Assembly: GCA_020853795.1 (NCBI GenBank)
Contig: JADYYF010000122.1
Span: forward strand, 1-58,593
Origin: Candidatus Zixiibacteriota bacterium
Lineage (GTDB): Bacteria > Zixibacteria > MSB-5A5 > CAIYYT01
DNA: 58,593 bases
Direction: 5' to 3'
Shown here: one piece after another, positions 34,987 to 53,076 of the stretch
Numbering within the stretch: the stretch's first letter is position 1
How the letters are laid out: each line of letters opens with the position of its first letter
Made by a program: the position numbers and the translations under genes
The notes under the pieces: generated by a model
The model's input: the letters and a program-made list of their open reading frames with translations, nothing else
Databases searched by the model: none
Told to the model about the DNA's origin: nothing

Positions 34987-37900
34987 ATGACAAACTGGCG
35001 ACCAAAGCATCAGAAGTCTGGGGCAATCCTTACGAGGTATCCGCAGCCTCTGGCGCTGGCGTACCAGACGTTGCTGGAAGCGCTCGATGCCGGGAGACTT
35101 GCACAGGCGTTGACGAGTCTTCATAGTCTCTGTGAGAAGACGCTTACTTACTGTTGTATTCTTCTTGACGTCGAAATTCTTAGGAGCACGCGCAAGTTAA
35201 CAGATATCCAACGGAACTCCATCAAGAACATTTACCTTAAGCGAACGATGTTCGGGGAAAAGATTGACCACCTGCAACAACTCACGAATGGTTCAGGATC
35301 TACTGACTTATGCAAGCTGTTTCGTCGCTCTGGGTCGGCTGAACTGCTAAATGTCCTCGAAGCTCTAAACAGGGCATACAAGCCAGCTGCACATCACTCG
35401 ATTATTGATGAACCCTTTGCAGTCGAACTCCTTGATAAATTCCTCGATCCGATTGTCCGTGTGCTTGCAAGGCAAGAGATCTTCACTGAACATGAACTAG
35501 TGCTTCCGTGCAAAGATGGCAGGCAGACTAAGCTAACCGGCAGTCATGAGGTCGAGTACGAGTCGACCTTTGACGAAGAGAAAGTGCTGATCACGAGAAA
35601 CGGTGGGATAGTAGCAAACGCCTGGCCGTTACTTGTTGTAAGGCGCAAAGGCAGTCTGGTTAGAGTCTACAATCTGGCAAGGATCGAAAGTGCTGGAAGA
35701 GAGCAAGTCAAATTGGATTACTTCGACGCCTTTGCAAGCGAGCGCTTCTCCGTAATAAGTAGGTCAGATGAATCTCTGTTTAAGAGTTTGAACGATCTAT
35801 TTGGTAATTTGCAAATTGGACCTGGAAGGAACTACCTAGACGACTTCAGTGATTTAAGGGAAAGGATCAGAGATTTCTCTGGGCGAACGTGGTTATTCAA
35901 GGATGTTAACGACTTCGTCAATGATCTTGCAGGCGGCCAAACATTCTTGATCCTTGGCAAACCAGGGACCGGCAAGTCGTCATTCATGGTTCAACACATG
36001 AAGCGGACTGTCGCGGACGATCCTCAGATTTCCCGGGGAGACTATAGCTACTTCTTCTTCAGGGACGGAGAGCACCACAGAAATCGATTGACGCAATGGA
36101 TGAAGCACGTAACGGACGACTTGGAAGCGAAGACCGGCATTAGCCTTCGGTTTGGACGTAAGAGTTTCGAGCCACTACCGAATGACGATGTGAACAAGCT
36201 CATGTGGCTCATCCAACGAATTAGAGACGAGGATCCGGATCGCGCGAAATCGCCAATCGTCTTCTTTGTAGACGGTATTGACGAATTGCAGCAAGAGGAC
36301 ATCGCTACATTTGTCGATTCGATCAATGCCCTGCGAACCATTGAAAATGTAGGATTGGTGCTCGCGAGTCGCGAGATTCGCGAACTCGACCGAATAGCTG
36401 GTCCACTGGTGAAACTAAGGCTTGAAGATGACGCACGCAATCTGCAAGATCTGCAGTTCTATGCAGAGACACGTCTTCCCTCATGGACCGAAGAGGAAAT
36501 AGCAGAGTTGATAAGCCGAACGGGCTGCGTATTTCTGTATCTCTCGGCCACGATTGATGACGTGCTTCACGACCGGCTTGCAAGGGGAGAATTGTCGAGC
36601 CTCCCGGGCGACCTCGAGTCGTATTATGACCGCATCATGCGATTTCGAATGCCAGAGAGATTTTCATATCACGGCTTGGTCTGGGAAGAAACGGGATTAA
36701 GGGCTCTGGCACTAATGATTGCCCTTCAAGTGCGGCCAACTGTGGAGATGCTGGCCAGATACTCTGGCATTGGGATAGAGAAGCTGCGCCGTACTCTGGA
36801 TTTGCTTCGAGAACTGCTGATCATTCCGAGCGACCGACCGTCAGGTTACCCGCAATCCGAGGGAAGTCATGAAACAGAAGGTATTCGTGTGTTTCATAAA
36901 TCGTTCGAAGATTTTCTCGAGAAGACAAATGCCCCCGAGATTCGAAGAGCCCACGATCGCATAGTCAATCATTTCCTGCCGATGATCAGAGAGGACAGGT
37001 TTAACAGGCCGGAACCCTACTTTTTCTATTACTATCTCAGGCACCTGAAGATCACCAGTCGATTAGAGATCCTGAGTGAAGTTGTGCACTGCAAGAGCCA
37101 ATTCCGCGAACGCGTCAAGTTTCTTCTTGGGGGAAAGAAATGGCCTGACGAAGATAGCTCCTGGTACAGCTACTTTGATGAATACCCTGACTGTAATGGT
37201 GACAGCGCAATGCTCCTCCTCCTCTTAAGCAGTTACCTCAGAGAAGTTGTGCTAGAAGAGCGGAGTCTCGCCTTGCGTGTTCTCCTACTCAGATTGACTC
37301 GTCTTTTCCCAGTCTGGAGAACACTAACGCGCTTCGAGCACCGTGATTACGGAGCCACTTCCGAAGTGCCGCTATGGCACTATCAAATGCTACTAATGCT
37401 CGCGAGCAGGGCTCCACTCTTGGCGCGCTCGTGGAGCATGAGGCTCGCATTTTGGAGGGAGCATGGTGCTCTGATCGTTCTTCTCGACTGTGGCCTCAAA
37501 GAGATTATCACGGGCAAACTACTCGACGATATTGGAAGCGAGGGAATCTCTCCTCTGGATCTGGGTCGAGAACTTTGGAACTCCATACTTGCTTCTCCAT
37601 CTCATGAACTGAAGGAGTTTCTGGAACAAGCATCGATCGATTCCGCCTGGAATCCAACGGCTACCGAGTGGAAAATGACAATAAATGTCGACGAAATCGT
37701 CCTGACGGTAGAGAATCTCGGTAAGCTCTTTAGTCGAGACGACGAGTACGTGGAGCTTCTTCGAGACTTTCTGAATCGCTTTGCGAAGGATTCTCCAACC
37801 GCAGAGGCCATGCGCTCTGGGGAAATGTCTGACGAGGCTGAACTTCCTGATGAGAAAACGAAGTTGGCGCTTATGGCTGCTGCTTTATGTCAATTGAATC

Positions 37901-38931
37901 CCGATGACCCTGTTGACATCGATCTACTGACTTCCTTTCTCACTCGTTCTCGGTTTGCCACTGGAATGCGGTTACTCATTGCGAGTCAGTTGCCAGAAGA
38001 ACTGCAGCAGCTAATTATCAGGAACGATGCTCTGCTAAACGTTCTTTACTCCGACTACAGAACCTTTGTTGACAAGATGTTGGAGTCCGGCGAATACACC
38101 TGGATCCTGGACGGAGATGACGACGAGGAATTGCTACCTCCGCTTCCACCTGAATTCTTAAAGACTGTCGTGCCCTGGCTTCGGAAGCATATTCCAACCG
38201 GAATCGATGAGCTTGACTCGCGGATTATGGAGTGGATCGGAGCCATCGAAGATCCTAAACACTTTCTGATAGCGCTGGAGTTCTTCCTCGGAATAGTGAG
38301 AGCGGAGAACGTGCCTGAGGCGCTTGCCAAGACTGCTATGGCCGCATACTGGAAGTGTGTTGGAATCAAAGAAGAAGAGGGTACGAAGCCGACGTATTAC
38401 AATTCAACTTTCTTCAACAAAGTAAGTGAGCTTCTGCATGGTCGATATCATGATGAGCTGATGAAGCTATTTGTCGAGCGGGTTGACTATTGCCTCCAAT
38501 CGCGTGCCTTTATCTATCAGAACTATGTCAAACCAAAGGATCACAGGCTTCAGCCTATCAAAGATGCGCTATATAATGCCTGCGTACGGGACCTGAAGGT
38601 GTTCAAGACAGTACGAGGGAAGCCAGTCTATGCAAATGTCTTCAGCATTGATCTGCCTGACAGTGGTGATTTCTACCTCGATCGGCTTTGCGACGATGAT
38701 GAGAATTACGCTGAGGAATTGAACGAAAGGGCTGACAAAAGATATGAGGAGGTGGTCGGACAATTGCTGTTCGGAGACTTGGGAAGGAAAACCCTCTTGC
38801 CCTCACAGTGCACGCAGCTCAATGAGATCATAAACAATGCATTTGACTGCGGTTGGAGCACAAATGAGCTGCTCAACAGCATTCTCGATGCTATTTCCAG
38901 TTTTCAGAAGAGAGCCAGCGTAGACGCGTAG
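34987..38931 (+). CDS. NACHT-type STAND ATPase, candidate defence protein
   Basis: A 1314-residue protein with GGAGG 8 bases before the ATG. The N-terminal 300 residues begin 'RYPQPLALAYQTLLEALDAG', a helical opening seen in other bacterial signalling NTPases. A NACHT-like ATPase follows: Walker A 'LGKPGTGKSSF' (about 325), Walker B 'VFFVDGIDEL' (about 426), sensor-like 'LVLASREIREL', and 'TGCVFLYLSATIDD' with 'LPGDLESYYDRI', the winged-helix lead-in typical of NACHT proteins. The last 700 residues are rich in helix-forming sequence but show no repeat I can name. Such STAND proteins commonly sense phage components; no effector nuclease or TIR domain is visible. It sits immediately upstream of restriction-type genes. 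Confidence 0.82.
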   Translation: MTNWRPKHQKSGAILTRYPQPLALAYQTLLEALDAGRLAQALTSLHSLCEKTLTYCCILLDVEILRSTRKLTDIQRNSIKNIYLKRTMFGEKIDHLQQLTNGSGSTDLCKLFRRSGSAELLNVLEALNRAYKPAAHHSIIDEPFAVELLDKFLDPIVRVLARQEIFTEHELVLPCKDGRQTKLTGSHEVEYESTFDEEKVLITRNGGIVANAWPLLVVRRKGSLVRVYNLARIESAGREQVKLDYFDAFASERFSVISRSDESLFKSLNDLFGNLQIGPGRNYLDDFSDLRERIRDFSGRTWLFKDVNDFVNDLAGGQTFLILGKPGTGKSSFMVQHMKRTVADDPQISRGDYSYFFFRDGEHHRNRLTQWMKHVTDDLEAKTGISLRFGRKSFEPLPNDDVNKLMWLIQRIRDEDPDRAKSPIVFFVDGIDELQQEDIATFVDSINALRTIENVGLVLASREIRELDRIAGPLVKLRLEDDARNLQDLQFYAETRLPSWTEEEIAELISRTGCVFLYLSATIDDVLHDRLARGELSSLPGDLESYYDRIMRFRMPERFSYHGLVWEETGLRALALMIALQVRPTVEMLARYSGIGIEKLRRTLDLLRELLIIPSDRPSGYPQSEGSHETEGIRVFHKSFEDFLEKTNAPEIRRAHDRIVNHFLPMIREDRFNRPEPYFFYYYLRHLKITSRLEILSEVVHCKSQFRERVKFLLGGKKWPDEDSSWYSYFDEYPDCNGDSAMLLLLLSSYLREVVLEERSLALRVLLLRLTRLFPVWRTLTRFEHRDYGATSEVPLWHYQMLLMLASRAPLLARSWSMRLAFWREHGALIVLLDCGLKEIITGKLLDDIGSEGISPLDLGRELWNSILASPSHELKEFLEQASIDSAWNPTATEWKMTINVDEIVLTVENLGKLFSRDDEYVELLRDFLNRFAKDSPTAEAMRSGEMSDEAELPDEKTKLALMAAALCQLNPDDPVDIDLLTSFLTRSRFATGMRLLIASQLPEELQQLIIRNDALLNVLYSDYRTFVDKMLESGEYTWILDGDDDEELLPPLPPEFLKTVVPWLRKHIPTGIDELDSRIMEWIGAIEDPKHFLIALEFFLGIVRAENVPEALAKTAMAAYWKCVGIKEEEGTKPTYYNSTFFNKVSELLHGRYHDELMKLFVERVDYCLQSRAFIYQNYVKPKDHRLQPIKDALYNACVRDLKVFKTVRGKPVYANVFSIDLPDSGDFYLDRLCDDDENYAEELNERADKRYEEVVGQLLFGDLGRKTLLPSQCTQLNEIINNAFDCGWSTNELLNSILDAISSFQKRASVDA

Positions 38932-39057: not shown

Positions 39058-42000
39058 ATGGGTGACTTGAGAAGCAAAGGCGGAGACCTTTTCATCGTCG
39101 ACAACAGCGACGCCGACTGGAAGGTTAAGCAGTACCTTCACGAGTGGGCAGATCTCGCCACCAAGTTTGACATCGCCACAGGTTACTTCGAAATAGGGGC
39201 GCTCCTGGCGCTCGACGGGCAATGGCAGAAGCTCGAGCAACTGCGAATTCTCACTGGTGACCAGGTTTCGCTGCGAACAAGAAAGGCGCTACTTGAGGGT
39301 GTTGAAAGGGCAAAGAAAGTCCTCGACATAAGCCTCGAAAAAGAGAAGGAAGGGAACGATTTCCTTCGGGGCGTTCCCGCTATAGTTGACGCGATTTCCG
39401 ACGGCAAGATCAAGGTCAGAATCTATACCAAGGACAAGTTTCACGCCAAGGCGTACATAACTCATGCCAAGCAGGCAGTGATTGGTGCAGCCGCGTTGGT
39501 GGGTTCAAGCAACTTCACGTATCCCGGACTAACGACAAACGTCGAATTGAATATTCAAATTAGGCGGGAAGTCGAAGAGCTTCAAACGTGGTTTGAGACT
39601 CACTGGAATCAAGCCGAGGAGATCTCCGACGAGGTGCTAAAAGTTATCGAGCGGCACGTTCGTGACTACACGCCATTTGAAGTTTATGCCAAGGCCCTGC
39701 AGGAGTTCTTCAGGGGCCATGAGTTGACGGTGAGCGAGTGGGAGCTCTCGGGTCCGAAGCATGGCGGCTCCCAAATGTATGCCAAACTCGATCGTTACCA
39801 GCAAGAAGGCTACAGAGCGCTGATGAAGATCGCCCAGCAATACGGCGGCGCATTTCTTTGCGACGGCGTCGGGCTTGGGAAGACCTTCATTGGTTTGATG
39901 GCCATCGAGCGTTTGACGATGTTTGAACGCAAGCGGGTTGCGCTCTTTGTCCCGAAAGCGGCGCGGAAGCCCGTCTGGGAGAAGCACCTGCGCAAGCACC
40001 TTCCGCAACTCTACGGTGATTTCTCCAACTTGGTCGCGTTCAATCACACTGACCTGTCTCGCGAAGGCGATTGGGTTGAGCGTTTCCGGCGAATTGCTGA
40101 ACAGGCGGATGCCATTGTCATCGACGAAGCACACCACTTCCGTAATCCCGGAATCAAGGGCGAAGGCGAACGCAAGCCGTCGCGCTATCGCAAGATGCTG
40201 GAGCTATGTGAGGGCAAGCAGGTCTACCTGCTGACGGCGACTCCCATTAACAACAAGCTCATAGACCTTCAGCACATGATCGAGCTCTTCGTCCCGAGAC
40301 GCCCGGACGGCAAACCGCAGGTAGATTTCTTCAAGGACGCGCCGTTAGGGATTCATTCCCTTCGGGGCCATTTTCGCAAGATGGAGAACGCGCTGGAAAG
40401 ATTGCTCGATCTGAAGCGGGGTACACTTGACAGCAGTGAGGTGAGCCTGACCGAGGCCGAAGCCATCTTGAAGGATGACACCCTGTTTCGAGCCTTGGTA
40501 GTGCAACGCAGTCGCGCCTACGTGCGCAAGAGCCAAGAGCAGCACGGCGAGTCGGCGGCGATGTTCCCGGTGCGAGCGACGCCTCAAGTAGTCGGTTACT
40601 CCGTCAAGAAGACTTACGGCCGGCTGCTCGATTTAGTTGAGGCGGCGTTCTCGAAAGAGAAGGCGTTATTCACCCTCGGTAGCTACTATCCGCTATACTA
40701 CTACAGCGGGCCACGAACCGACATTGACCCGCTGCTTGAGGGCCGCCAAAAGCAAGTGGTGTCACTGATTCGCACACAATTCCTGAAGCGATTTGAGAGC
40801 TCGGTCAAGGCATTTGAGGTTTCCTGCATTTTCCTTCTCCGGAAGATCCTTGCCTTCCAGGAGGTCAATAGTGCAACAAAGTCCGAACGGGCGCGCTTGG
40901 AGAAGTGGTGCGCATTACATCAAGAGCTGATTGACTACGCACAGGAGTCGCTGAGAGATTATCGGAGCGACGCTGATGATGACGAGGATTTCATTACCGA
41001 GGAGATGCTCGAAGGCGTGGAGAAACTCGAGCGCGACGAGTATCGCATCAGCGATCTGTTGGCGGACAACTACCTTGATCTCGATCAGATTTGCGAGTTC
41101 TTGGAGGAGACACAGAGATTCCGCGCAACGCATGATGACAAGCTCGCGGCACTGAAGAAGCTTCTGAAGAACGAACCGCTGTTGAAGGGCCAAAAGGTGC
41201 TCATTTTCTCAGAATACATGCATACCGCGCGCTATCTTCATTCGGAGTTGACCAAATCAGGCTTTGTGGACGTGGATGAGGTTGACAGCTCTGATGATCG
41301 TGACCGGGGGGAGATTATCACGCGGTTTGCGCCTTACTACAACGACTCATCATCAGCCGGGCTAATACAGGCCGGATTGGAAGAGATTCAGATCCTGATT
41401 TCAACCGACGTCTTGTCGGAGGGACTCAACCTGCAAGACGCCACTCTGATGATCAACTATGATTTGCACTGGAATCCGGTACGCCTGATGCAGCGAATCG
41501 GCCGTGTCGATCGGCGCATGGATCCCGCCGTCGAGAAGCGCATCATAGCCGATCACCCGGAACGCGCCGCTTCTCGCGGAAAGATCCACTATTGGAACTT
41601 CCTCCCGCCCGATGAACTGGACGACCTGCTCAAGCTCTATTCGAAGGTGTCGCACAAAACGCTGCGCATTTCAAAGGTCTTTGGCATTGAGGGGCGGAAA
41701 CTGCTCAAGCCGGAAGACGACTATGAGGCCCTGAAGGACTTCACCCACGCTTACGAAGGCACGACCACAACAATCGAGGAAATGCATCTTGAGTATCAGC
41801 GTTTGTTGAGAGATAACCCCGGCCTGGAAGAGCGCTTGAACCTCCTGCCCGGACGGGTGTTCTCCGGCAAACAACATCCCACAGCGGGCGCGCGGGCGGT
41901 GTTCCTCTGCTACGCCCTGCCGGCGCCGCGACCGACCGATCCCCAGAACCCGAGCAGCGAAGTCATCTGGGCGGAAGACGCTGGCCGCACCAAGTGGTAT

Positions 42001-42222
42001 CTCTTCGACCTCGAAAGTGAGATAATCGTGGACGAGCCCGCCGAGATCGTTACAGTGATCCGTTCGGAACCGACCACGACGCGGCGGCGGGTGATTGAAG
42101 ATGCCACGCTTAGCGAGATTCGCGTCAAGGTGGAAAAGCACATCAAAAACAGCTATCTGAAGCAGGTGCAAGCGCCGGCGTGGGTGAAGCCGGTGCTCAA
42201 GTGTTGGATGGAGCTCAGTTGA
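39058..42222 (+). CDS. PLD-nuclease/SF2 helicase fusion
   Basis: A 1054-residue protein. The N-terminal about 220 residues carry a phospholipase-D-type nuclease domain: 'KDKFHAKAYITHAKQAVIGA' with H-x-K, then 'VGSSNFTYPGL'. Only one HKD-like motif is seen, so the active site may form by dimerisation. The SNF2/SF2 helicase follows with 'GGAFLCDGVGLGKTFIGLMA' (Walker A), 'AIVIDEAHHFRN' (DEAH box), 'VYLLTATPINNKLIDL' (motif III) and, in the second RecA domain, 'ILISTDVLSEGLNLQDA' and 'LMQRIGRVDRRMDP' (V, VI). The stop overlaps the methyltransferase start (TGATG), so the two are made together. The layout recalls DISARM DrmD-like helicases, but the fused PLD is different. Confidence 0.88.
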   Translation: MGDLRSKGGDLFIVDNSDADWKVKQYLHEWADLATKFDIATGYFEIGALLALDGQWQKLEQLRILTGDQVSLRTRKALLEGVERAKKVLDISLEKEKEGNDFLRGVPAIVDAISDGKIKVRIYTKDKFHAKAYITHAKQAVIGAAALVGSSNFTYPGLTTNVELNIQIRREVEELQTWFETHWNQAEEISDEVLKVIERHVRDYTPFEVYAKALQEFFRGHELTVSEWELSGPKHGGSQMYAKLDRYQQEGYRALMKIAQQYGGAFLCDGVGLGKTFIGLMAIERLTMFERKRVALFVPKAARKPVWEKHLRKHLPQLYGDFSNLVAFNHTDLSREGDWVERFRRIAEQADAIVIDEAHHFRNPGIKGEGERKPSRYRKMLELCEGKQVYLLTATPINNKLIDLQHMIELFVPRRPDGKPQVDFFKDAPLGIHSLRGHFRKMENALERLLDLKRGTLDSSEVSLTEAEAILKDDTLFRALVVQRSRAYVRKSQEQHGESAAMFPVRATPQVVGYSVKKTYGRLLDLVEAAFSKEKALFTLGSYYPLYYYSGPRTDIDPLLEGRQKQVVSLIRTQFLKRFESSVKAFEVSCIFLLRKILAFQEVNSATKSERARLEKWCALHQELIDYAQESLRDYRSDADDDEDFITEEMLEGVEKLERDEYRISDLLADNYLDLDQICEFLEETQRFRATHDDKLAALKKLLKNEPLLKGQKVLIFSEYMHTARYLHSELTKSGFVDVDEVDSSDDRDRGEIITRFAPYYNDSSSAGLIQAGLEEIQILISTDVLSEGLNLQDATLMINYDLHWNPVRLMQRIGRVDRRMDPAVEKRIIADHPERAASRGKIHYWNFLPPDELDDLLKLYSKVSHKTLRISKVFGIEGRKLLKPEDDYEALKDFTHAYEGTTTTIEEMHLEYQRLLRDNPGLEERLNLLPGRVFSGKQHPTAGARAVFLCYALPAPRPTDPQNPSSEVIWAEDAGRTKWYLFDLESEIIVDEPAEIVTVIRSEPTTTRRRVIEDATLSEIRVKVEKHIKNSYLKQVQAPAWVKPVLKCWMELS

Positions 42223-45200
42223 TGACAATGCACAAGAATATCGAAGCAGCCCTCCATGACGTTGTCGACCTGAAGACCTTCGTTGATGTGCTCCTCCGCA
42301 ATCAATTAGGCTGGCCGATTGAGCAGGAAGTCACACAACTTGACGACATCGCGTTCGAGTGGACAGAGGACGAACTAAAGGCGAAGGGATTGAGCAAGCA
42401 TCTTACTGAGGGCAAGATCTTCCAAATTCAGCCGCTCGTCGATGACCAGACTTGGGGCATCTTCGTGCTCGAATTCAAACGAGCAGATGTCTTTACCAAG
42501 GAACGCGGAACAACGCGAATTCTCAGAGAAGTTCTGCGTGGACTGGTCGGTAGTCGCGACAAACGCGCCGATCAGAAAACGTGGCAACCCGACCAAATCT
42601 TGTTTATCTGTACCCATCAGTATCAACATTTTCGTTTTGCGCATTTCAAGAAACCGACCTCCGGCAAGGGCATTGCCACTATCGCCACATTTGGCTGGGG
42701 ACACGACATCCCAGCCCGAACAGCATGCGAATTCAATTTGCCTGCACTCAAGTGGCCGGCCGAGCCAGGAAAAGCCGGCGAATGGATCAGGGCATGGTCG
42801 AATGCCTTCAACATTGAAAAGGTAACCCGCCGATTCTATGACGATTATGAGGAAGTATTTACCCTCGTAGAGGGCAGCCTCAAATCTCAGCTCAAGAATG
42901 ACGAGGAACGTCGCAAGTATACGCAGATGCTCTTCAACCGCCTAATGTTTCTCCGCTTCGTGGAGCGTAAAGGTTGGCTGAAGTTTGACGGCAAGGAAGA
43001 CTACCTGCGGCAACTGCATGCGGCCGGACCGATCGGCAACAAGTCGTTCTTCAAGAGCCGGATTGAGCCGCTGTTTTTCAAGGCTCTGGCTGAGGAAGGC
43101 TATCAAGACGATGTCGCGATTGGTCAAGTGCATTTTCTCAATGGCGGACTATTCCTCAAGCATGAACTTGACAACAAAGTAATTGACATCAAAGATGCCG
43201 CCTTCGAGCCAATCATCGGCGAGCAGGGTCTCTTCTATCGCTACAATTTCACTGTCGAAGAGTCGACGCCGCTCAACATCAACGTAGCGGTCGATCCCGA
43301 AATGCTGGGTAAGGTATTCGAGAAACTCGTCACCGGCCGTCATGAGTCCGGGTCATACTATACTCCTCGAACGGTTGTTTCTTTCATGTGTCGAGAGGCA
43401 CTAAAAGGCTACTTGGGCGGATTCGAAAGTCTCGTGGATGAACATGACGCGGCCAATATCAAATTACCACAAGCGCGCGAATTGCTACGGCGACTTTCCG
43501 AGGTCAAGGTCGTCGATCCGGCGTGCGGTTCGGGAGCATACTTGTTGGGTATGTTGAATGAACTGCACACGCTCAAGCAGATACTCCAGGCTCGCGACGA
43601 GGAGATGACACCCGAAGGCGACTACGAACTCAAACTTAAGATCATTCAAAACAACCTTTACGGTGTAGACCTCGACGATTTCGCCGTCAACATTGCCCGC
43701 TTGCGGTTGTGGTTGGCCCTCGCGGTCGACTTCAAAGGCAAGAAACCTCAGCCGCTGCCAAATCTTGATTTCAAGATCGAACAGGGCGATTCTCTGGTGT
43801 CACCGAATCCGCAAGGAAATTACGATCTCGCTCAGTCGATCATTTTGGAAGTTGCACGTTTGAAGTCTGATCATTCGCGAACCACAAAACCGGAACGCAA
43901 AGCCGAGCTTGAGAAACAAGTCACGGAAAAGCGCAAGGAAATTGCCAAATGGGTGCGCTCGGGCCAGAAAGTCGAGAGCTTCGATTGGGGTGTCGATTTC
44001 GCAGAAGTTTTCCTGCCTCGCAATCCAGAAGCGACGGTCGACGGTGAAATTCCGCTTGGCGATAAATTGGCTGCCCAGACCCAGCCGGGAGGATTCGACA
44101 TCGTCCTGGCAAATCCCCCTTATGGAATCAAGTGTGAAGATCCACTCCGTTTCAACTTCTTCCCGCGCAAGAAGGACAAGGACGGCAAGCAAGAAGAACC
44201 ACAGAGCAAGGATAGCTACGGTCTTTTCATGGCCCGAGCTTTGCAGTTGCTCAAGCCTGGTGGCCATTTCACCTACATCGTTTCCGACACCTGGCGGACA
44301 ATCAGATCGCACCGGCCGCTACGCAAGAAGCTTCTCGAAGAAACTCAGGTATTGCATCTTATGGACTTGCCATCCTGGATTTTCGATGCCACGGTGAATA
44401 CCTGCATCATTACTGCCAATAAGCAGAAGCCGGGTGACCAGCACAAGCTGATCGCCGCCGATCTGCGCAACCTCCCGAGCGACCAATGGAATACACTGGA
44501 AGCTAACCTTCGCGCCATCGCCGGACACGGCGTGGATGTTCAGACGACTGAGTATGCTCGCTACACCTACGAGCAAGAATTGATTAGCACTTACAACAAC
44601 TTTTCATTTTTCATCGGTTCGCCCGAGCTTTATCGGCTAATGAGCGATCCGCGATTCACTAAGCTCGGTGACATAGCAGAAGTGAAGCAAGGGTTGGCAA
44701 CGGCGGATAATAAATACTACCTGCGCAGGAGACCGGAAGCTCGCGGGAGCTATGATATCATCGACGACTCCAAGATACTGACCGATGCAGAGATTAAGAA
44801 TCTCACTCAGGATGAAAAGCTCAACGGCGTCGATCTAAGAAACTACGGTGGAAGGCACTTTGTGCCCTATGATAAGGGCGGCGAGAGCGATACCGATGAG
44901 GGCTGGTTGCCGAATTACTATGTTCCTACTCAGTATTTCATCGACTGGTCAATGAGCGCAGTCAAGCGGCTTCGAACGGCGACCATTGCGGATATCAAAC
45001 GGTCGCATGGAGACGAAGATAAGATTAGTCCCGGTGACGAGGAACGAATCGCTTCGAGATTTCAGAATTCCGAGTACTACTTTCGCGAGGGGATTACGTT
45101 TTCGCGAACAGGAATTTATGCGCCCACTTTCAGAATTGGCAGTAGCTCGTGCTTCGACTCAAAGAGCGATGGGCTATTTGCTGATAGAATTGACCAGTCC

Positions 45201-46088
45201 TTCTTGCTGAGCATCTTGTGCAGCCTGCAATTCAGGTATCTGTTCAAAATCTACCAATGTCACACAGTCCAAGCTGAGGGCGATGCGATGGAGGCAATGC
45301 CAGTATGCATGTTCGCGTCTGCCGATAGTCAGAAAGAGCTATCGGTGTTAGCAGATGCGATAATTGCGAAACAGAGAGAAGACGGAGACTACTCGTTTCA
45401 TAGCGACGAGCAGAGTGTGATCAACGAAATCCTGTATCGGGTGATCGGATTCACTCAGGATGACATTCGCGAAATAGAACTTTGGTACTGCCGCCGTTAT
45501 CCGAAGCTCGCCGAGGCGCAAAATTCTATCGTTGAAGTTAAACAGAAGTACGCCGACTATCTCGCGCACTGCGAACTCGTCATGAGCAAGCCGCCTTCCT
45601 ACTGGCGGTCGCACCCGATACTCCAGCTCGTCGTCCAGGGTGAGGGGCCACAACTTGAATTCAAAGAGACCCTGGACTATGATGTCAAGACCGGCCAGAA
45701 AAACGGCGAGTTGGTCAAATCTGCCTTGAAGACGATAGCAGCATTTCTGAATACGACCGGTGGCACCTTGCTCATCGGGGTAACCGACAGCGGCGAGATC
45801 AAAGGGTTAGAGCGCGATTTTGCGCTTTGCCATAAGCACGACAAGGACGGCTTTGAGCAGAAGCTGCGCAATCTCGTCAATGACCGTTTCGAGCCGAAAC
45901 CGCACAACAAGATCGACCTCTCCTTCGAACAGTTTCCCGAGGGCATGATCTGTCGCGTCGCTGTCACAGCCACCACTGACATCACACACTTTGACAAAGA
46001 TATTTATATCCGCGACGGCAACCTCACCCGCAAACTCGACGGCCCGGCACTGACGAAGTGGGTACAGGATCGACGAACAAGAATCTGA
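42222..46088 (+). CDS. ExK nuclease-N6-adenine methyltransferase-AlbA_2 fusion
   Basis: About 1288 residues from ATG 42222. An N-terminal region has a PD-(D/E)xK-like pattern ending 'WGIFVLEFKRADVFTKE' (E-x-K near residue 83), so nuclease activity is possible. The methyltransferase is of the Eco57I/type IIG kind: motif I 'VVDPACGSGAYLLGMLNEL' (about 431) and motif IV 'IVLANPPYGIKCEDP' (N-P-P-Y near 630), which specifies adenine-N6 methylation. A target-recognition-like segment follows ('GDIAEVKQGLATADNKYYLR'). Unusually, residues about 1140-1285 are an AlbA_2/Schlafen-type domain ('EGPQLEFKETLDYDV', 'AAFLNTTGGTLLIGVTDSGE'). It is coupled to the upstream helicase. The start is supported by overlap rather than a ribosome-binding site. 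Confidence 0.88.
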   Translation: MTMHKNIEAALHDVVDLKTFVDVLLRNQLGWPIEQEVTQLDDIAFEWTEDELKAKGLSKHLTEGKIFQIQPLVDDQTWGIFVLEFKRADVFTKERGTTRILREVLRGLVGSRDKRADQKTWQPDQILFICTHQYQHFRFAHFKKPTSGKGIATIATFGWGHDIPARTACEFNLPALKWPAEPGKAGEWIRAWSNAFNIEKVTRRFYDDYEEVFTLVEGSLKSQLKNDEERRKYTQMLFNRLMFLRFVERKGWLKFDGKEDYLRQLHAAGPIGNKSFFKSRIEPLFFKALAEEGYQDDVAIGQVHFLNGGLFLKHELDNKVIDIKDAAFEPIIGEQGLFYRYNFTVEESTPLNINVAVDPEMLGKVFEKLVTGRHESGSYYTPRTVVSFMCREALKGYLGGFESLVDEHDAANIKLPQARELLRRLSEVKVVDPACGSGAYLLGMLNELHTLKQILQARDEEMTPEGDYELKLKIIQNNLYGVDLDDFAVNIARLRLWLALAVDFKGKKPQPLPNLDFKIEQGDSLVSPNPQGNYDLAQSIILEVARLKSDHSRTTKPERKAELEKQVTEKRKEIAKWVRSGQKVESFDWGVDFAEVFLPRNPEATVDGEIPLGDKLAAQTQPGGFDIVLANPPYGIKCEDPLRFNFFPRKKDKDGKQEEPQSKDSYGLFMARALQLLKPGGHFTYIVSDTWRTIRSHRPLRKKLLEETQVLHLMDLPSWIFDATVNTCIITANKQKPGDQHKLIAADLRNLPSDQWNTLEANLRAIAGHGVDVQTTEYARYTYEQELISTYNNFSFFIGSPELYRLMSDPRFTKLGDIAEVKQGLATADNKYYLRRRPEARGSYDIIDDSKILTDAEIKNLTQDEKLNGVDLRNYGGRHFVPYDKGGESDTDEGWLPNYYVPTQYFIDWSMSAVKRLRTATIADIKRSHGDEDKISPGDEERIASRFQNSEYYFREGITFSRTGIYAPTFRIGSSSCFDSKSDGLFADRIDQSFLLSILCSLQFRYLFKIYQCHTVQAEGDAMEAMPVCMFASADSQKELSVLADAIIAKQREDGDYSFHSDEQSVINEILYRVIGFTQDDIREIELWYCRRYPKLAEAQNSIVEVKQKYADYLAHCELVMSKPPSYWRSHPILQLVVQGEGPQLEFKETLDYDVKTGQKNGELVKSALKTIAAFLNTTGGTLLIGVTDSGEIKGLERDFALCHKHDKDGFEQKLRNLVNDRFEPKPHNKIDLSFEQFPEGMICRVAVTATTDITHFDKDIYIRDGNLTRKLDGPALTKWVQDRRTRI

Positions 46089-46245
46089 GAATAGTCAAAC
46101 TGACATAGGTGAAACAAAAGGTGACATATGGGAGACGAAGACCAAAGGCAATATGAGAAGTTAACGAAAAATCAAAAGGTGGAGGCGTAGTCGGTTGATT
46201 CGTAGTTAAGGGAGTGCTAATATTGCAGAAGGAGTGAGAACTGAC

Positions 46246-47016
46246 ATGTATTTCATGTACGTCGACGAAAGCGGTGACTGTGGATTGAATAATTCGCCAT
46301 CAAGAGTTTTTGTCTTGACCGGCCTTGTGATCCACGAGTTGCGTTGGCAGGCATGCCTCGATGAACTCATCGCTTTTCGAACTCGGATGAGACAGAGATT
46401 TGGACTGAAATTGCGAGAAGAATTTCACGCGGCTCATCTCATCACTAAGCCGGGCGATCTGGCCAAGCGAATATCGCGAAACGACCGGCTGGCGATGATC
46501 CGACATTTCGCCGACTGTCTTGCCCGAATTGCGTCCATCTCTCTTATCAATGTGCTCATTGACAAGTCGGGCAAGACTGCAAAATACGACGTCTTCGAAA
46601 CAGCGTGGACAGCTTTGATTCAGCGATTCGAAAACACAATTGCCAGGCGCAACTTTCCAGGGCCTGCCAACGCCGATGATCGCGGCCTCATTTTCTGTGA
46701 CCATACTGATGACAAGAAATTGATGCAGTTGTTGCGCAAGAGAAGAAACTACAACCCAGTTCCCCACGCACAGGATTATGGGCGCGGCTATCGAAACTTG
46801 CCACTACAGTACGTGATCGAAGATCCGAGTTTCCGAGATTCGAGACATTCGTATTTTATTCAAGCCGTCGACTTAGCCGCATTTCTCCTGTATCAGAAAG
46901 TTTCTCCCGGTCAATTTTTCAAGCTAAAATCCGGGCAAAACTACTTCAACCGACTCGATCCGATCCTGTGCAAGGTCGCGTCGGCGACAGACCCAACTGG
47001 AATTGTTCGGCTTTGA
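46246..47016 (+). CDS. DUF3800 protein
   Basis: A 256-residue protein starting 'MYFMYVDESGDCGLNN', the D-E-S-G motif that marks DUF3800, with 'FHAAHLI' and 'IFCDHTDDK' in the middle and 'FIQAVDLAAFLLYQK' near the end. The acidic residues are arranged as in RNase H-like folds, and the family is common in defence islands and beside restriction systems, but its activity is not established. ATG 46246 is used; GTG 46234 lies inside the GGAG ribosome-binding site. It follows the methyltransferase by 157 bases and may belong to the same system. Confidence 0.82.
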   Translation: MYFMYVDESGDCGLNNSPSRVFVLTGLVIHELRWQACLDELIAFRTRMRQRFGLKLREEFHAAHLITKPGDLAKRISRNDRLAMIRHFADCLARIASISLINVLIDKSGKTAKYDVFETAWTALIQRFENTIARRNFPGPANADDRGLIFCDHTDDKKLMQLLRKRRNYNPVPHAQDYGRGYRNLPLQYVIEDPSFRDSRHSYFIQAVDLAAFLLYQKVSPGQFFKLKSGQNYFNRLDPILCKVASATDPTGIVRL

Positions 47017-48268: not shown

Positions 48269-49951
48269 TCAACTTGCCTTCGCCAACGGGATTTGTTTCC
48301 AAGCTGAGAGTGGTTTGCGTTTTCGCATTCTCCGGATCTTGGCCTCTTGCGGCTTGGCGTCAAGGCATTCTCTCGCCGAGTGATCCAATGCTTTCGGGGC
48401 CGTAGACGATGCCGCTTCAACTTCGACCGATGCAGCCGATGGCGACTTCGTCTCCTCTGGCTGATCATCTGAGGTAGTTGCGCTAGTTCTCGGCTGAGTG
48501 CTTGTGGCCCGTATCCGCCTTGCCCTGTACGCGCCGTATTTCGCAATGAGTTCCGACCGGCTGAACCGCGCGCCCAGGGCTTCATCTAGTGACGCGAATT
48601 CCGTGGTTTCTGTCGTGTATTTGAAAGCAATGAAGAAGATACTGCATTGCTCTTCGAGCCAATTTGCCGGACGCCATTTGGCCACGAGAAAACTCGAAGC
48701 GAGAAGCATCAAGAACGCTTTCACGTTTCTTGTCGAGAACTTATCCAGACTCGTCAATCTGTGGTAGGGAATTGGACAAAGCCAAAACTCGCAATCTGCA
48801 AGCTCAGCCCAATACTTGAAGACAGAAAGAGCAGGATTTTTCTGGCATAGACACTCGGCACATTGATGCGACGGAAGCAATATGGCATTAGCCTTTACAT
48901 AGCTCAAGAGTGCGAAAGCTCGTCGTTGGTCATCATATTTCGAGAACAGCTGCAAAATCTGATCAACATCGGTAGCCGACACTTGACGCCCTCTGCGCGA
49001 GAATATCCTGCGAGTCTTCGCTGGATTCTTGGGACGCCATCCATTGACTGCGTTACGTATCTTCGTGTCGCTTGGATCAAGGTCACCTCTGTTGATCGAG
49101 TTCGAATATCCGTTGTGCTTGTGCCTGATCCACTCCATCAAGAAGTCAGTCGTCTCGGAGGGACTCAAGATTCTTGCGGAGAGGAAGTAGTAGGTCAGCG
49201 CCCACACGGCATCATAGGTCGAGATTTCCGGATACAAGCCCTCTCGCAGCAACCGATCAACCTTCTCTCCAAATTCCTTGCCTCGCTCGATCCAGGAATC
49301 GGTTTCAGCGCAGTCTGGCAGAACCAGTCTATCGCACTTAGCCACGCGAACCGCATACTGAATTTGCCCGGTCTTGCTCAACGTGAAGTATGGTTCAAAT
49401 GTAATTGGATCAACAGTGAAGCTCCCATCTCCGAAGGGTAGCCGATCAGAAGCCACCGCGACTCTGACTTCAATGATGGCAGGTCCGAATTGTATTTTGG
49501 CGTCCTTGAGCTTTTTCACAATGCACTTCTGGACGTCAGAAGCCAAGTACGGGCGCTCCAGGAAGAGCACTAGGCGCAGGCCTCCAGATCGAGAGCTAGT
49601 ATAGACTAGGTAATTGCCAGGAATAGCCCTCATCACCGACCGAGCCCGTTGCTCAACTGATTCGTTGACCTTGCCGTGATCATCAATATCGAACATCACG
49701 CAGGTCACCATAGAGCCGATCCTAGCCGCAATTGTCCTGATGCCGCACAAATGCTGTATCACCGCGAGCTTGGATAATTGACTATGAGTCAAGAACCAAC
49801 TCGAACGATCGCAGGAGTTCTTGGCTCTCAATTCAAAGAAGTCCCTCCTGGGTTTTCCAGTAACAAAGAGGTTCCAGTAGTCATCAAATGCCGCCTCAGT
49901 GACTCCGTGTTCGACAAGCAGTTGTCTGGATTCCTTGCTCAGTTTATTCAT
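48269..49951 (-). CDS. AEP-primase-like replication protein
   Basis: A 560-residue protein from ATG 49951, where GGGAGAGG lies 5 bases upstream; the open frame reaches 50056. 'VTCVMFDIDDHGKVNE' resembles the D-x-D metal motif of archaeo-eukaryotic primases. 'YLVYTSSRSGGLRLVLFLER' fits the following strand, although the usual His of motif II is Arg/Leu here. 'EVRVAVASDRLPFGDGSF' resembles the third region. The middle third may hold a helical primase-associated domain with 'CAECLCQKN'. The last 100 residues are Ser/Thr/Ala-rich and basic. It overlaps the DnaB-like gene by 8 bases, which supports a replication role. The family call is tentative. Confidence 0.55.
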   Translation of the reverse strand: MNKLSKESRQLLVEHGVTEAAFDDYWNLFVTGKPRRDFFELRAKNSCDRSSWFLTHSQLSKLAVIQHLCGIRTIAARIGSMVTCVMFDIDDHGKVNESVEQRARSVMRAIPGNYLVYTSSRSGGLRLVLFLERPYLASDVQKCIVKKLKDAKIQFGPAIIEVRVAVASDRLPFGDGSFTVDPITFEPYFTLSKTGQIQYAVRVAKCDRLVLPDCAETDSWIERGKEFGEKVDRLLREGLYPEISTYDAVWALTYYFLSARILSPSETTDFLMEWIRHKHNGYSNSINRGDLDPSDTKIRNAVNGWRPKNPAKTRRIFSRRGRQVSATDVDQILQLFSKYDDQRRAFALLSYVKANAILLPSHQCAECLCQKNPALSVFKYWAELADCEFWLCPIPYHRLTSLDKFSTRNVKAFLMLLASSFLVAKWRPANWLEEQCSIFFIAFKYTTETTEFASLDEALGARFSRSELIAKYGAYRARRIRATSTQPRTSATTSDDQPEETKSPSAASVEVEAASSTAPKALDHSARECLDAKPQEAKIRRMRKRKPLSAWKQIPLAKAS

Positions 49952-51695
49952 AATGACCTCTCCCTTCTGACTCAATTGCATAGCTAAGCCAAACCTGATC
50001 AAGGCAGCCTTGACTGATGGCCGATGTGATCCCCGCCTCAGTGCCGTTCGATTCAATAACTGGACAACAGCAATGGAACATCCATTTCCCTTTTAAAATA
50101 TATGCTGCAGGATCCACACACGGAGAGAGCCTCAGCGTTTCTCGTGTATATAGATCACGGTAAGTGATTACTCTATAGCAACTTGGTTTCAGACAACTCC
50201 CGGCTGCCCTTTTCGACACCAAGGTGTAATGGGGATTTAATCGGGTTAATTTAGTTTTCTTTCGCCGGCGAGGAGAAGAAGCCAAGATATTCTCCACCCT
50301 CTCCTCGTAAATCTTCTGCGTTACCAAATCCATCGTTGTAATTGTCCGCCCCGTCGGGCCGTTTCTTTGCTTGGCGATGTCGATCTCCAGGTCGACCAAC
50401 GCGTTGGTATTGGTTTTGTCATAGTAGGACTCGCGGAACAAAAGCAGCACCGTGTCCGCAATCTGTTCAATGGCGCCGCTGTCTCGAAGGTGCCGGAGTG
50501 AGGGGCGTTTGTCGGTTTCCCCTTCAACGCTCCGTGATAACTGCGCGAACAGAACGATCGCCACCCCGATGTTCTTGGCGGCATCCCGCAACATCGTGCA
50601 GATGTTGTCGTACTTTTCGTTCAGGTTGGATCCGGAGACGTTCCTTCCGATGATGTTGAGGTAGTCGATTACGACATACTTGAGGTCCTCATGTTGGAGC
50701 TTGTGACCTTTGATGATTGAAATGATTTGATGCACCGATAAGCCGGCGGTGTCGACGATGTGAATCGGGTACTCGGTGGACAAGACCGCATCGAACATGG
50801 TCATGATGTTGGTCGACCCGCAGTCGGTACAGGCGTTCTCAACCCGGTACTCTTGATAGGTCGTCTTTGAGACGGTGTTGGTCCCGTGGCAGTCCCGACA
50901 AGAGACGGGCTCATACATTCTCTCCAATTCCGCCTTGGCAACGAATCCGGTATGAAGGTTGTTCAGGCTGATCCCCACCCGAGACGAAATCAGGCGCTCG
51001 TAAAGCGACTCGGCGCTCATTTCCATCGAGAAGACCAGCCCCCGCTCATTTTTCGCCATCGAGTTGTCCTCGATAATGCGCAGGCCGAAAGCAGTCTTGC
51101 CCATCCCGGGTCTTCCCGCTACGACAAATAGTTCCCCGGGTCTGACCCCGCCGGTCATCTTGTTCAGTTCCGTTGTTCCCAGACTCACCCCGATCAGCTT
51201 GCCGGACATCCGTTGCGCAAAGTGGTTCTTGATGGATTCCATGGTGGCTTTCATGGCCTCTCCAAAGGGGACCGGCCGTGACCTTGAATCGCTGCGCATT
51301 AGTTCTTGGAGTTTTGTGGCGTGCTGGGAGATGACGTAATCGATCTTGGTATTCTTATCGTCCGCCATTGTCGCAAACTGTCTAGCGGCCTCTTTGGCTT
51401 CCCTTCTGACATAAGAGTCCCTGAGGATTTTGATGTAGGTGTCAATCAACTTGGGGGATTCATTTTCGCACTCCCAGAGCCAGGTGGTATCGACGGGGGT
51501 CTGTAAGTAGTGGGGGCAGGACCCGCTATCAAACGTTACCCCGTCGACATAGGCTTTTTTGATGGCTCGTAAAATGAATACCGAGCTGGTCTCCTTGAAG
51601 TACTCTTCCCTGACTTTTTCTATGTAGTCCGGCAGGAGATTTTGGATGGCCACCAGAATTGCCAGCAGTTTCTGGTCGATTGAAGCGTTTTTCAT
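49944..51695 (-). CDS. DnaB-type replicative helicase with inserted zinc-ribbon-like segment
   Basis: A 583-residue protein from ATG 51695, with AGGAG 6 bases upstream. The C-terminal RecA-like core is typical of DnaB: 'GVRPGELFVVAGRPGMGKTA' (Walker A), 'GLVFSMEMSAESLYERLISS', 'YVVIDYLNIIG' (Walker B), 'VLFAQLSRSVE', 'LRHLRDSGAIEQIADTVLLL' and 'IDIAKQRNGPTG'. Between the H2-like helix and Walker B, residues about 275-315 carry C-x2-C and a second C-x2-C ('CRDCHGTN', 'CTDCGSTN'), a zinc-ribbon pattern absent from ordinary DnaB. A Cys-rich tail of about 100 residues follows the core. With the overlapping primase-like gene it forms a priming/unwinding module of an integrated element. Confidence 0.85.
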   Translation of the reverse strand: MKNASIDQKLLAILVAIQNLLPDYIEKVREEYFKETSSVFILRAIKKAYVDGVTFDSGSCPHYLQTPVDTTWLWECENESPKLIDTYIKILRDSYVRREAKEAARQFATMADDKNTKIDYVISQHATKLQELMRSDSRSRPVPFGEAMKATMESIKNHFAQRMSGKLIGVSLGTTELNKMTGGVRPGELFVVAGRPGMGKTAFGLRIIEDNSMAKNERGLVFSMEMSAESLYERLISSRVGISLNNLHTGFVAKAELERMYEPVSCRDCHGTNTVSKTTYQEYRVENACTDCGSTNIMTMFDAVLSTEYPIHIVDTAGLSVHQIISIIKGHKLQHEDLKYVVIDYLNIIGRNVSGSNLNEKYDNICTMLRDAAKNIGVAIVLFAQLSRSVEGETDKRPSLRHLRDSGAIEQIADTVLLLFRESYYDKTNTNALVDLEIDIAKQRNGPTGRTITTMDLVTQKIYEERVENILASSPRRRKKTKLTRLNPHYTLVSKRAAGSCLKPSCYRVITYRDLYTRETLRLSPCVDPAAYILKGKWMFHCCCPVIESNGTEAGITSAISQGCLDQVWLSYAIESEGRGHYE

Positions 51696-52785
51696 TGTCG
51701 CTCCTGTTAGGGTCAACTGTTTGTCCCTCAAGTAATTATGAGGGATTGCCGTGTGCCAGTGCTTATCTTGGTTTTGCCGCGCTGGTTACACATAGAAAAA
51801 GAAAGGGATACCCCTTCTCTTTCTCCCAGATTTTCTGTTATTTCTCAGGAATATTTTTTTTGCAGTTCTCGCTTCGACGATCTTGACGCTCGCTTGGCGT
51901 TTTTCGGGCGGTAGCTGCTTCATGATTGAGGCAATTCTCTCGGCCTCTTCATCGTGCTATGGCGGGACAGTCCCAGGTCATGAATTCCGCCAGCTACTGG
52001 GGACTCTACAGCGGTCTTCGCACCTATATGCTGGGCATTCCACAGGATTTCCACCCTCCCTTCTGATTTTTTGCACCTCGCTTTTTGCGGAGAATCCTGA
52101 TCATGGTTGAACTTATTTGTTCTGCTGAATACGGAAGTTATCAGGCTTATTCCGATTGAGTGGAAGATGCTGACCATCAATCGAGCATGGTTTGGCAGAA
52201 TTTTCGCGCTCAGAAAACATAACCTAAGATCATGTCATATAATGTCTTATGAGATTTATGCGATGCCCGGCCCCGTGATTTCGACGCTGAGCCTTAGATT
52301 GCGTCCGAAGCCAAGTACTAGCGACAACTCTGCTTGGCTGAGGTTAGTTTGCACTAATTTTAAGAATATCGGGAGATGATGTGATAGTCAGCTCTTCTCT
52401 ATTAATGAAGGCGACTCAAGTAACCAAGACTACTTTGAAAGGAGATTAAGTTTATGATGGTTTAATGACTGACTCCCGTGAGAAGACCCGGGAGCTTTCA
52501 CACGATTTGTGCTCGTGCGCAATTGGCTCTCGAGTTGAGGAATCTGGTCAGTAGTTCAGGACCAGGACTGTTCACAACATGTCGGATGAATTCGCATTCA
52601 GCTGCTTGTTCACAAAACCAGTTAGTCGGGGAAAAAGTGCGTAAATCTCACAATTGCCGATCCAAACAAGGGTCTCAGCGCCTCATAGTTTTGATCGAAG
52701 ACTGGCACCCATTGGTCACTTATCTGAATAACATCCAGGGGCGTCACGAACAAACCCATCAAGGCATTAGCAATCTTGCTTTCAG
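51696..52785. other. 1.1-kb non-coding region upstream of the dnaB-like gene
   Basis: No ORF of credible composition is present on either strand. The segment is AT-richer than its surroundings (for example 51780-51870 and 52190-52260), with polypurine/polypyrimidine stretches near 51795-51835. Position between a replicative helicase and a small HTH protein suits a replication origin or a lost-gene region. No iteron series could be found by eye. Confidence 0.35.
52473..52494. repeat. CTCCCG/CGGGAG inverted repeat
   Basis: CTCCCG at 52473-52478 and CGGGAG at 52489-52494 are separated by 10 bases. The same core arms, in the opposite order, form the longer stem at 53108-53139, so related dyads flank the small HTH gene. 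Confidence 0.4.
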
Positions 52786-53076
52786 ATGAGCGCCAGATCA
52801 AGTGATCAGAATCAAAGACAATTCAACCATCAAGATCAACTAATGACAGCAAGTGAGGTTGCGGAGTACCTTCAAGTCAAACTGTCAACCATCTACCAAT
52901 GGACCCACGCGGGCTACATTCCACATATCAAGCTGGGAGGTCTAGTTAGGTTCAGGCGAGAAGCCATTGATGCGTGGATTGAACGCTCGGCAATTCGGGG
53001 TCGAAAGAACCGTCGAGCGAAGGGCAAAAACACTGAACACGATATCGATTCAGCAGACTTCGATCGCGCAGCATGA
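52786..53076 (+). CDS. Helix-turn-helix (excisionase/MerR-like, HTH_17) protein
   Basis: A 96-residue protein. 'LMTASEVAEYLQVKLSTIYQ' then 'WTHAGYIPHIKLGGLVRFRR' and 'AIDAWIERSA' are the complete HTH_17 signature shared by phage and plasmid excisionase-like and RDF proteins. The tail is short and basic, then acidic. The start is not decided: ATG 52786 or ATG 52843, which begins exactly at the domain; neither has a ribosome-binding site. Beside a replication module it probably regulates excision or copy control of an element; no integrase is within the window. Confidence 0.85.
   Translation: MSARSSDQNQRQFNHQDQLMTASEVAEYLQVKLSTIYQWTHAGYIPHIKLGGLVRFRREAIDAWIERSAIRGRKNRRAKGKNTEHDIDSADFDRAA

Follow-up and report, generated by a model that had tools for sequence, protein, structure and literature searches.

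What kind of defence system is encoded by two coupled genes of Candidatus Zixiibacteriota bacterium, the first joining a nuclease to a helicase and the second carrying an adenine methylase? The genes lie on contig JADYYF010000122.1 (C122), the 58,593 nucleotides of which are referred to here as the window. The first gene, HEL (39058..42222, + strand), encodes a protein of 1054 aa in which a PLD (HKD) nuclease is joined to an SF2 motor of the Swi2/Snf2 type. The second, MT (42222..46088, +), encodes an N6-adenine methylase and specificity subunit of 1288 aa. An initial annotation of this DNA had left the choice between a minimal DISARM-like system (DISARM, defence island system associated with restriction-modification) and a separate restriction system. 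Our analysis supports the separate system and not the DISARM-like one. Judging from sequence and from analogy with characterised enzymes, HEL and MT quite probably constitute a two-subunit, ATP-dependent restriction-modification system, which may be described as 'split Type ISP-like' with a PLD-Snf2 motor.

Both the fusion and the coupling of the genes had been recognised initially and were confirmed. Pfam assigned PLDc_2, SNF2/ResIII (SNF2-rel_dom) and Helicase_C domains to HEL, which also has a conserved C-terminal region of unassigned role, and the top PADLOC match was the HKD+Snf2 model C3a139 (1.4e-56), which outranked DrmD. The H129xK131 and GSSN motifs, the Walker A and DEAH boxes and motif VI are intact in the window and kept in nearly all 30 relatives, the PLD active site being nearly invariant among the aligned HEL sequences. 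By sequence and by fold the motor is Snf2/RapA-like, the predicted model of HEL matching RapA and SauUSI. The ATG of MT at 42222 shares one base with the TGA stop codon of HEL (TGATG).

The second protein had likewise been described correctly as containing an Eco57I-type adenine methylase and an AlbA_2 domain. Its methylase core (43506..44444, +; Pfam Eco57I/N6_Mtase and alignment) bears motif I, DPACGSG, near residue 432 and NPPY near residue 631, both of which are complete in the window and have been kept in its relatives. PADLOC models of Type IIG/PglX matched MT more strongly than DrmMI did, and the MT profile matched the structures of DrdV (7lo5, PMC11842806), LlaGI and LlaBIII at 1e-63 to 1e-70. 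The presumed target recognition region (44445..45392, +) resembles that of PglX from BREX-1 (BREX, bacteriophage exclusion), the NCBIfam model BREX_1_MTaseX matching at 1.4e-41, best over residues 625-1057, with a score below the family cut-off. The C-terminal SLFN_AlbA_2 domain (residues ~1141-1272; 45642..46037, +) was detected by Pfam at 4.6e-20, with 72.8 bits against a gathering score of 25.3, and the signature EFK / GGTLLIGV.D is present in the alignment.

The front of MT, residues 1 to ~205 (42222..42836, +), is a domain of about 200 residues, named NT here, for which a profile search gave matches in nearly all MT partners of close HEL relatives. A possible ExK nuclease had been proposed in MT, but such a PD-(D/E)XK nuclease at its N-terminus is not supported, given the variability of the two residues and the absence of a fold match. 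In 33 aligned NT sequences the position of E84 holds E in 17 and that of K86 holds K in 4. The AlphaFold (AF2) model, an alpha/beta domain with a predicted local distance difference test score of 80, had zero fold matches among PDB structures at E<=0.001, and a sequence comparison with the PDB gave no meaningful match. The conserved positions are structural residues (WP, QPWGIF, LR.IL, DLLFI, FAHF). As the predicted strand order resembles the restriction-endonuclease core, NT could possibly be an inactivated nuclease fold. Since it is the part common to all MT partners, we propose that NT is probably a docking or adapter domain joining MT to HEL.

How strictly are HEL and MT associated? A search with HEL across 84,980 genomes yielded 42 loci. 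In 38 of these the HEL is closely related to that of the window (42-64% identity), and the hosts belong to many phyla, cultured ones among them being Aquisalibacillus elongatus DSM 18090 (L031) and Bradyrhizobium sp. RP6 (L015); NT was detected beside HEL by profile or by tblastn, some of the MTs of relatives being partial owing to contig ends. An NT-bearing MT adjoins HEL in 48 of the 49 close loci sampled, namely on 37/38 genome contigs, on 8/8 viral contigs (IMG/VR) and in 3/3 loci of the phylum of the window, the window included. In the sole exception, L029, the contig stops 418 bp past HEL. When viral contigs were searched with NT only, six were found, all six already among the HEL contigs. 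In the phylum, of which 133 genomes were covered, just three genomes hold a close HEL, and the same three alone have the N-terminal part of NT; the third of them (G066) was checked directly, and the remaining NT-profile matches in the phylum begin at profile position ~173 or later. HEL and MT overlap or are separated by at most 81 bp in most relatives, and about eight have an extra gene between them. The pairing is far beyond chance. Given this near-total pairing, the agreement of the NT-only search and the joint occurrence in three of 133 genomes, HEL, NT and a methylase form one unit. The pair first noticed in the window is found in many phyla as a co-inherited two-gene cassette. Its patchy spread within the phylum would be consistent with horizontal transfer.

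The methylases themselves fall into three sets. The larger group carries a Type_ISP_C target recognition domain (TRD) where scanned (L008 and L026, 1.4e-67), the second, to which the window belongs, is Eco57I/BREX-1 PglX-like, and the third (L003, L007 and L009) has a BREX-2 PglX-like body. In this last set, the MT of L003 contains DUF7008 and reaches 440.7 bits with the NCBIfam BREX-2 PglX model (cut-off 400), and that of L009 lies right at the cut-off. With the second and third sets pooled against Type ISP, seven changes of the MT label are counted along the HEL tree; strongly supported branches force at least four of them, and the labels cluster no more than shuffled ones. Single pairs of loci display the same exchange. 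L003 and L004 are 81% identical in HEL, 34% in NT and 25% in the compared remainder of MT; the corresponding values for L005 and L007 are 75%, 31% and 28%. Across these pairs, L003 and L007 have 68% identity in HEL and 74% in the MT remainder, and L004 and L005, whose MTs are both cut by contig ends, have 83% in the latter. The NT sequence tracks MT, not HEL. Whole MT genes have thus been exchanged at least four times between Type ISP-like and PglX-like forms while HEL stayed.

Distant PLD-helicases (~26-30% identity) also stand beside Eco57I/TaqI_C methylases without NT, in the genome of the window, in related genomes and on plasmids. The general idea is therefore common, and what is new is the clade that is linked to NT and exchanges its methylases. 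A profile comparison of NT with the N-termini of these other methylases gave no homology (E 0.01 or worse); their predicted strand order looks alike. One such pair, L054, is a second PLD-helicase with an Eco57I/TaqI_C methylase in the genome of the window (contig C64), and lies downstream of genes of 232 and 197 aa that are AbiE-like by eye. Another, L065 on plasmid pJM1F of Lactococcus cremoris, lies next to an inverted TaqI-like specificity gene and an Mpi-type invertase, an arrangement possibly allowing phase-variable specificity.

If Type ISP enzymes and the PLD-SF2 enzyme SauUSI are taken as a guide, the two subunits of the proposed restriction-modification system might operate as follows. 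MT would find a DNA site, presumably asymmetric, through its TRD and methylate an adenine there, thereby marking host DNA. HEL would dock on MT via NT, and at an unmethylated site its Snf2-type ATPase would move along or remodel the DNA until the PLD domain cuts it, which may protect the host against phages. The motor-nuclease would be generic, and specificity could be altered by swapping the whole MT gene, with NT as the sole common need. In a wider form, the system may be modular, one PLD-Snf2 motor-nuclease accepting Type ISP, BREX-1 or BREX-2 PglX-like subunits via an undescribed docking domain of ~200 residues, with whole-gene exchange of MT for re-targeting and an AlbA_2 effector added in the lineage of the window; we regard this wider proposal as equally apt to be right or wrong. 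If NT is a true adapter, a one-gene swap changes restriction specificity, and the relation of PglX-like methylases in BREX to those in ordinary restriction systems becomes testable.

Several considerations weigh against a split Type ISP-like enzyme. The docking role of NT is deduced from conservation only, and the exchange of MT would also fit an NT that is an old methylase domain and has a different role. The Type_ISP_C domain was not detected by Pfam in the MT of the window, so that the Type ISP analogy depends on the relatives. Moreover, the motor of HEL is not Type I-like as in LlaBIII, and translocation in the Type ISP manner is therefore not guaranteed.

The alternative that survives best, although we consider it improbable, is an abortive or non-cutting system, in which MT would mark host DNA and unmarked DNA on HEL/MT would trigger AlbA_2, a Schlafen-like RNase domain, together with DUF3800, halting the cell. 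The DUF3800 gene (46234..47016, +; Pfam 1.2e-21) is indeed present behind MT, as first described, after a spacer of 145 bp, and the spacing of its own AGGAG box suggests ATG 46246 as the probable start. DUF3800 has a predicted RNase H fold in Cas12-linked loci (PMC10910872), AlbA_2 keeps its signature in the two loci that carry it, and in relatives toxin-like genes (PIN, PemK) occupy the gap between the two cassette genes. Both putative effectors are nevertheless rare, which argues, with the near invariance of the PLD active site, against such a mechanism. Among the relatives' loci examined, the AlbA_2 fusion occurs in the window and in L055 (genome G036) only, the latter being the nearest relative (HEL ~66%, MT 51% identity). 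DUF3800 occurs in two relatives (L018 and L025), placed between HEL and MT and not behind MT; it accompanies the cassette optionally and is no constant component of it. In the restriction-modification reading favoured here, AlbA_2 is a lineage-specific add-on, as perhaps is DUF3800, and they possibly serve as backup RNase effectors. The MT gene of L055 (5951-9619, - strand) has its NT domain broken by a frameshift, which is either a real break or an assembly error.

It is highly unlikely that the pair is a BREX-Related Type-2 system or a derivative of one. That system comprises an HKD-Snf2 helicase, a DUF499 ATPase, DUF3780 and an N6-methylase (PMC12839542), and thus has the same plan of an HKD nuclease N-terminal to a Swi2/Snf2 helicase with an N6-methylase partner; its NCBIfam model phospholipD_antiphage matches HEL. 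The match amounts, however, to 122 bits against a cut-off of 1100, and neither DUF499 nor DUF3780 was found by Pfam beside the window pair or among the top 25 families of the relatives' nearest neighbours. PglZ and BrxC were absent from the window genes scanned; the scan of the relatives' flanks covered families with at least two members.

We give very little credence to a reduced DISARM in which HEL would equal DrmD plus DrmC and MT would equal DrmMI, DrmA and DrmB being lost or acting in trans. The likeness to DrmD and DrmMI pointed out in the initial annotation is real, since DrmD models are matched by 30/30 HELs, DrmMI models by MT and, weakly, DISARM DrmC by HEL, but it is a likeness at the superfamily level, HKD+Snf2 and Type IIG/PglX models matching better. 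The NCBIfam equivalog of DrmD gave HEL 117.7 bits against a cut-off of 610, covering mainly the helicase core. DrmA and DrmB were missing from the Pfam and PADLOC scans of the window, as had been noted. The only MZB (DrmB-type) domain of the genome lies on contig C215, and the DrmA models match there only the helicase core of HEL and two proteins encoded on contigs other than C122. Near the relatives, DISARM and BREX genes were looked for in part of the flanks, and across many phyla the cassette has only two genes. Finally, a modification-dependent, Type IV-like enzyme cutting modified DNA is scarcely credible, for although the fold search with HEL recovered the PLD-SF2 restriction enzyme SauUSI (PMC7913695), the Pfam scan of HEL revealed no SRA or other modified-base reader, and the near-obligate linkage to a methylase is a hallmark of protective methylation.

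As to the surroundings, a gene for a NACHT/NPHP3_N-like STAND NTPase of 1314 aa (34987-38931, +) lies directly upstream of HEL. A consistent linkage of this gene or of DUF3800 to the pair, considered at the outset, was not observed, as no homologue of the NACHT gene occurs at any relative's locus examined; it is for that reason probably an independent defence gene. Genes found between HEL and MT in relatives encode PIN (L003), DUF1016_N (L007), a PemK toxin (L009), DUF3800, a DUF4062/HATPase protein (L034) and others, the gap being a recurrent insertion point for assorted toxin- or effector-like genes. Immediately after the cassette, two hosts that are not related to each other encode GNAT-domain proteins (L007:18163-20364, with PIN, and L021:16572-18605). 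Large proteins from the flanks of the relatives gave matches to models of Gabija, Septu, AriA, Old and MADS, which marks these surroundings as defence islands. Past the end of DUF3800 and pointing into it, the window has a perfect sigma-70 consensus (TTGACA-17-TATAAT, 47130-47102, -) with no Rfam match nearby, and DUF3800-associated non-coding RNAs were not detected in the window by Rfam. Farther on, a DnaB-type helicase with a 595-aa companion (48269-51731, -) and an excisionase/MAD1-like helix-turn-helix protein (52786-53076, +) lie between dockerin-type genes, a group that looks like the remnant of a mobile element.

How, then, does the pair compare with known systems? In the library searched, our literature search found related HKD-helicase systems and no description of the HEL-MT pair, an earlier annotation in REBASE or in subscription papers being possible. 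The window pair unites a PLD nuclease, an SF2 ATPase and a DNA methylase in one operon. It lacks a defining feature of Type ISP and of BREX-Related Type-2, and it is not DISARM. With DISARM it shares a Snf2 helicase, an adenine methylase and a PLD nuclease, but these are of different subfamilies, the PLD domain is on the helicase, and drmA and drmB are not beside the pair. The systems with PbeA and a CxC-ABC ATPase (PMC10853773) also fuse HKD to an SF2 helicase, whereas no ABC ATPase-DndE core stands beside the window pair. CglI and NgoAVII (PMC5737866) are multi-subunit and ATP-dependent, combining PLD with an SF2 ATPase; there the PLD is joined to a B3 TRD and the SF2 ATPase is a separate subunit, while in the window the PLD is on the motor and the TRD on the methylase. 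The Type IV enzyme SauUSI, of PLD-SF2-SRA composition, likewise places PLD N-terminal to the SF2 ATPase in a single chain, whereas HEL has a separate methylase/TRD partner subunit in place of SRA. Type ISP enzymes also couple an SF2 ATPase to an N6-methylase and a TRD, and their Type_ISP_C TRD is found in the ISP-type partners of HEL relatives; they differ from the window system in being one chain instead of two genes, in an Mrr instead of a PLD nuclease, in the motor, which is Snf2/RapA-like in the window, and in the TRD, as Type_ISP_C was not detected in the MT of the window. The proposed system would connect Type ISP, BREX and the PLD-helicase restriction systems, with methylase halves interchangeable on one motor.

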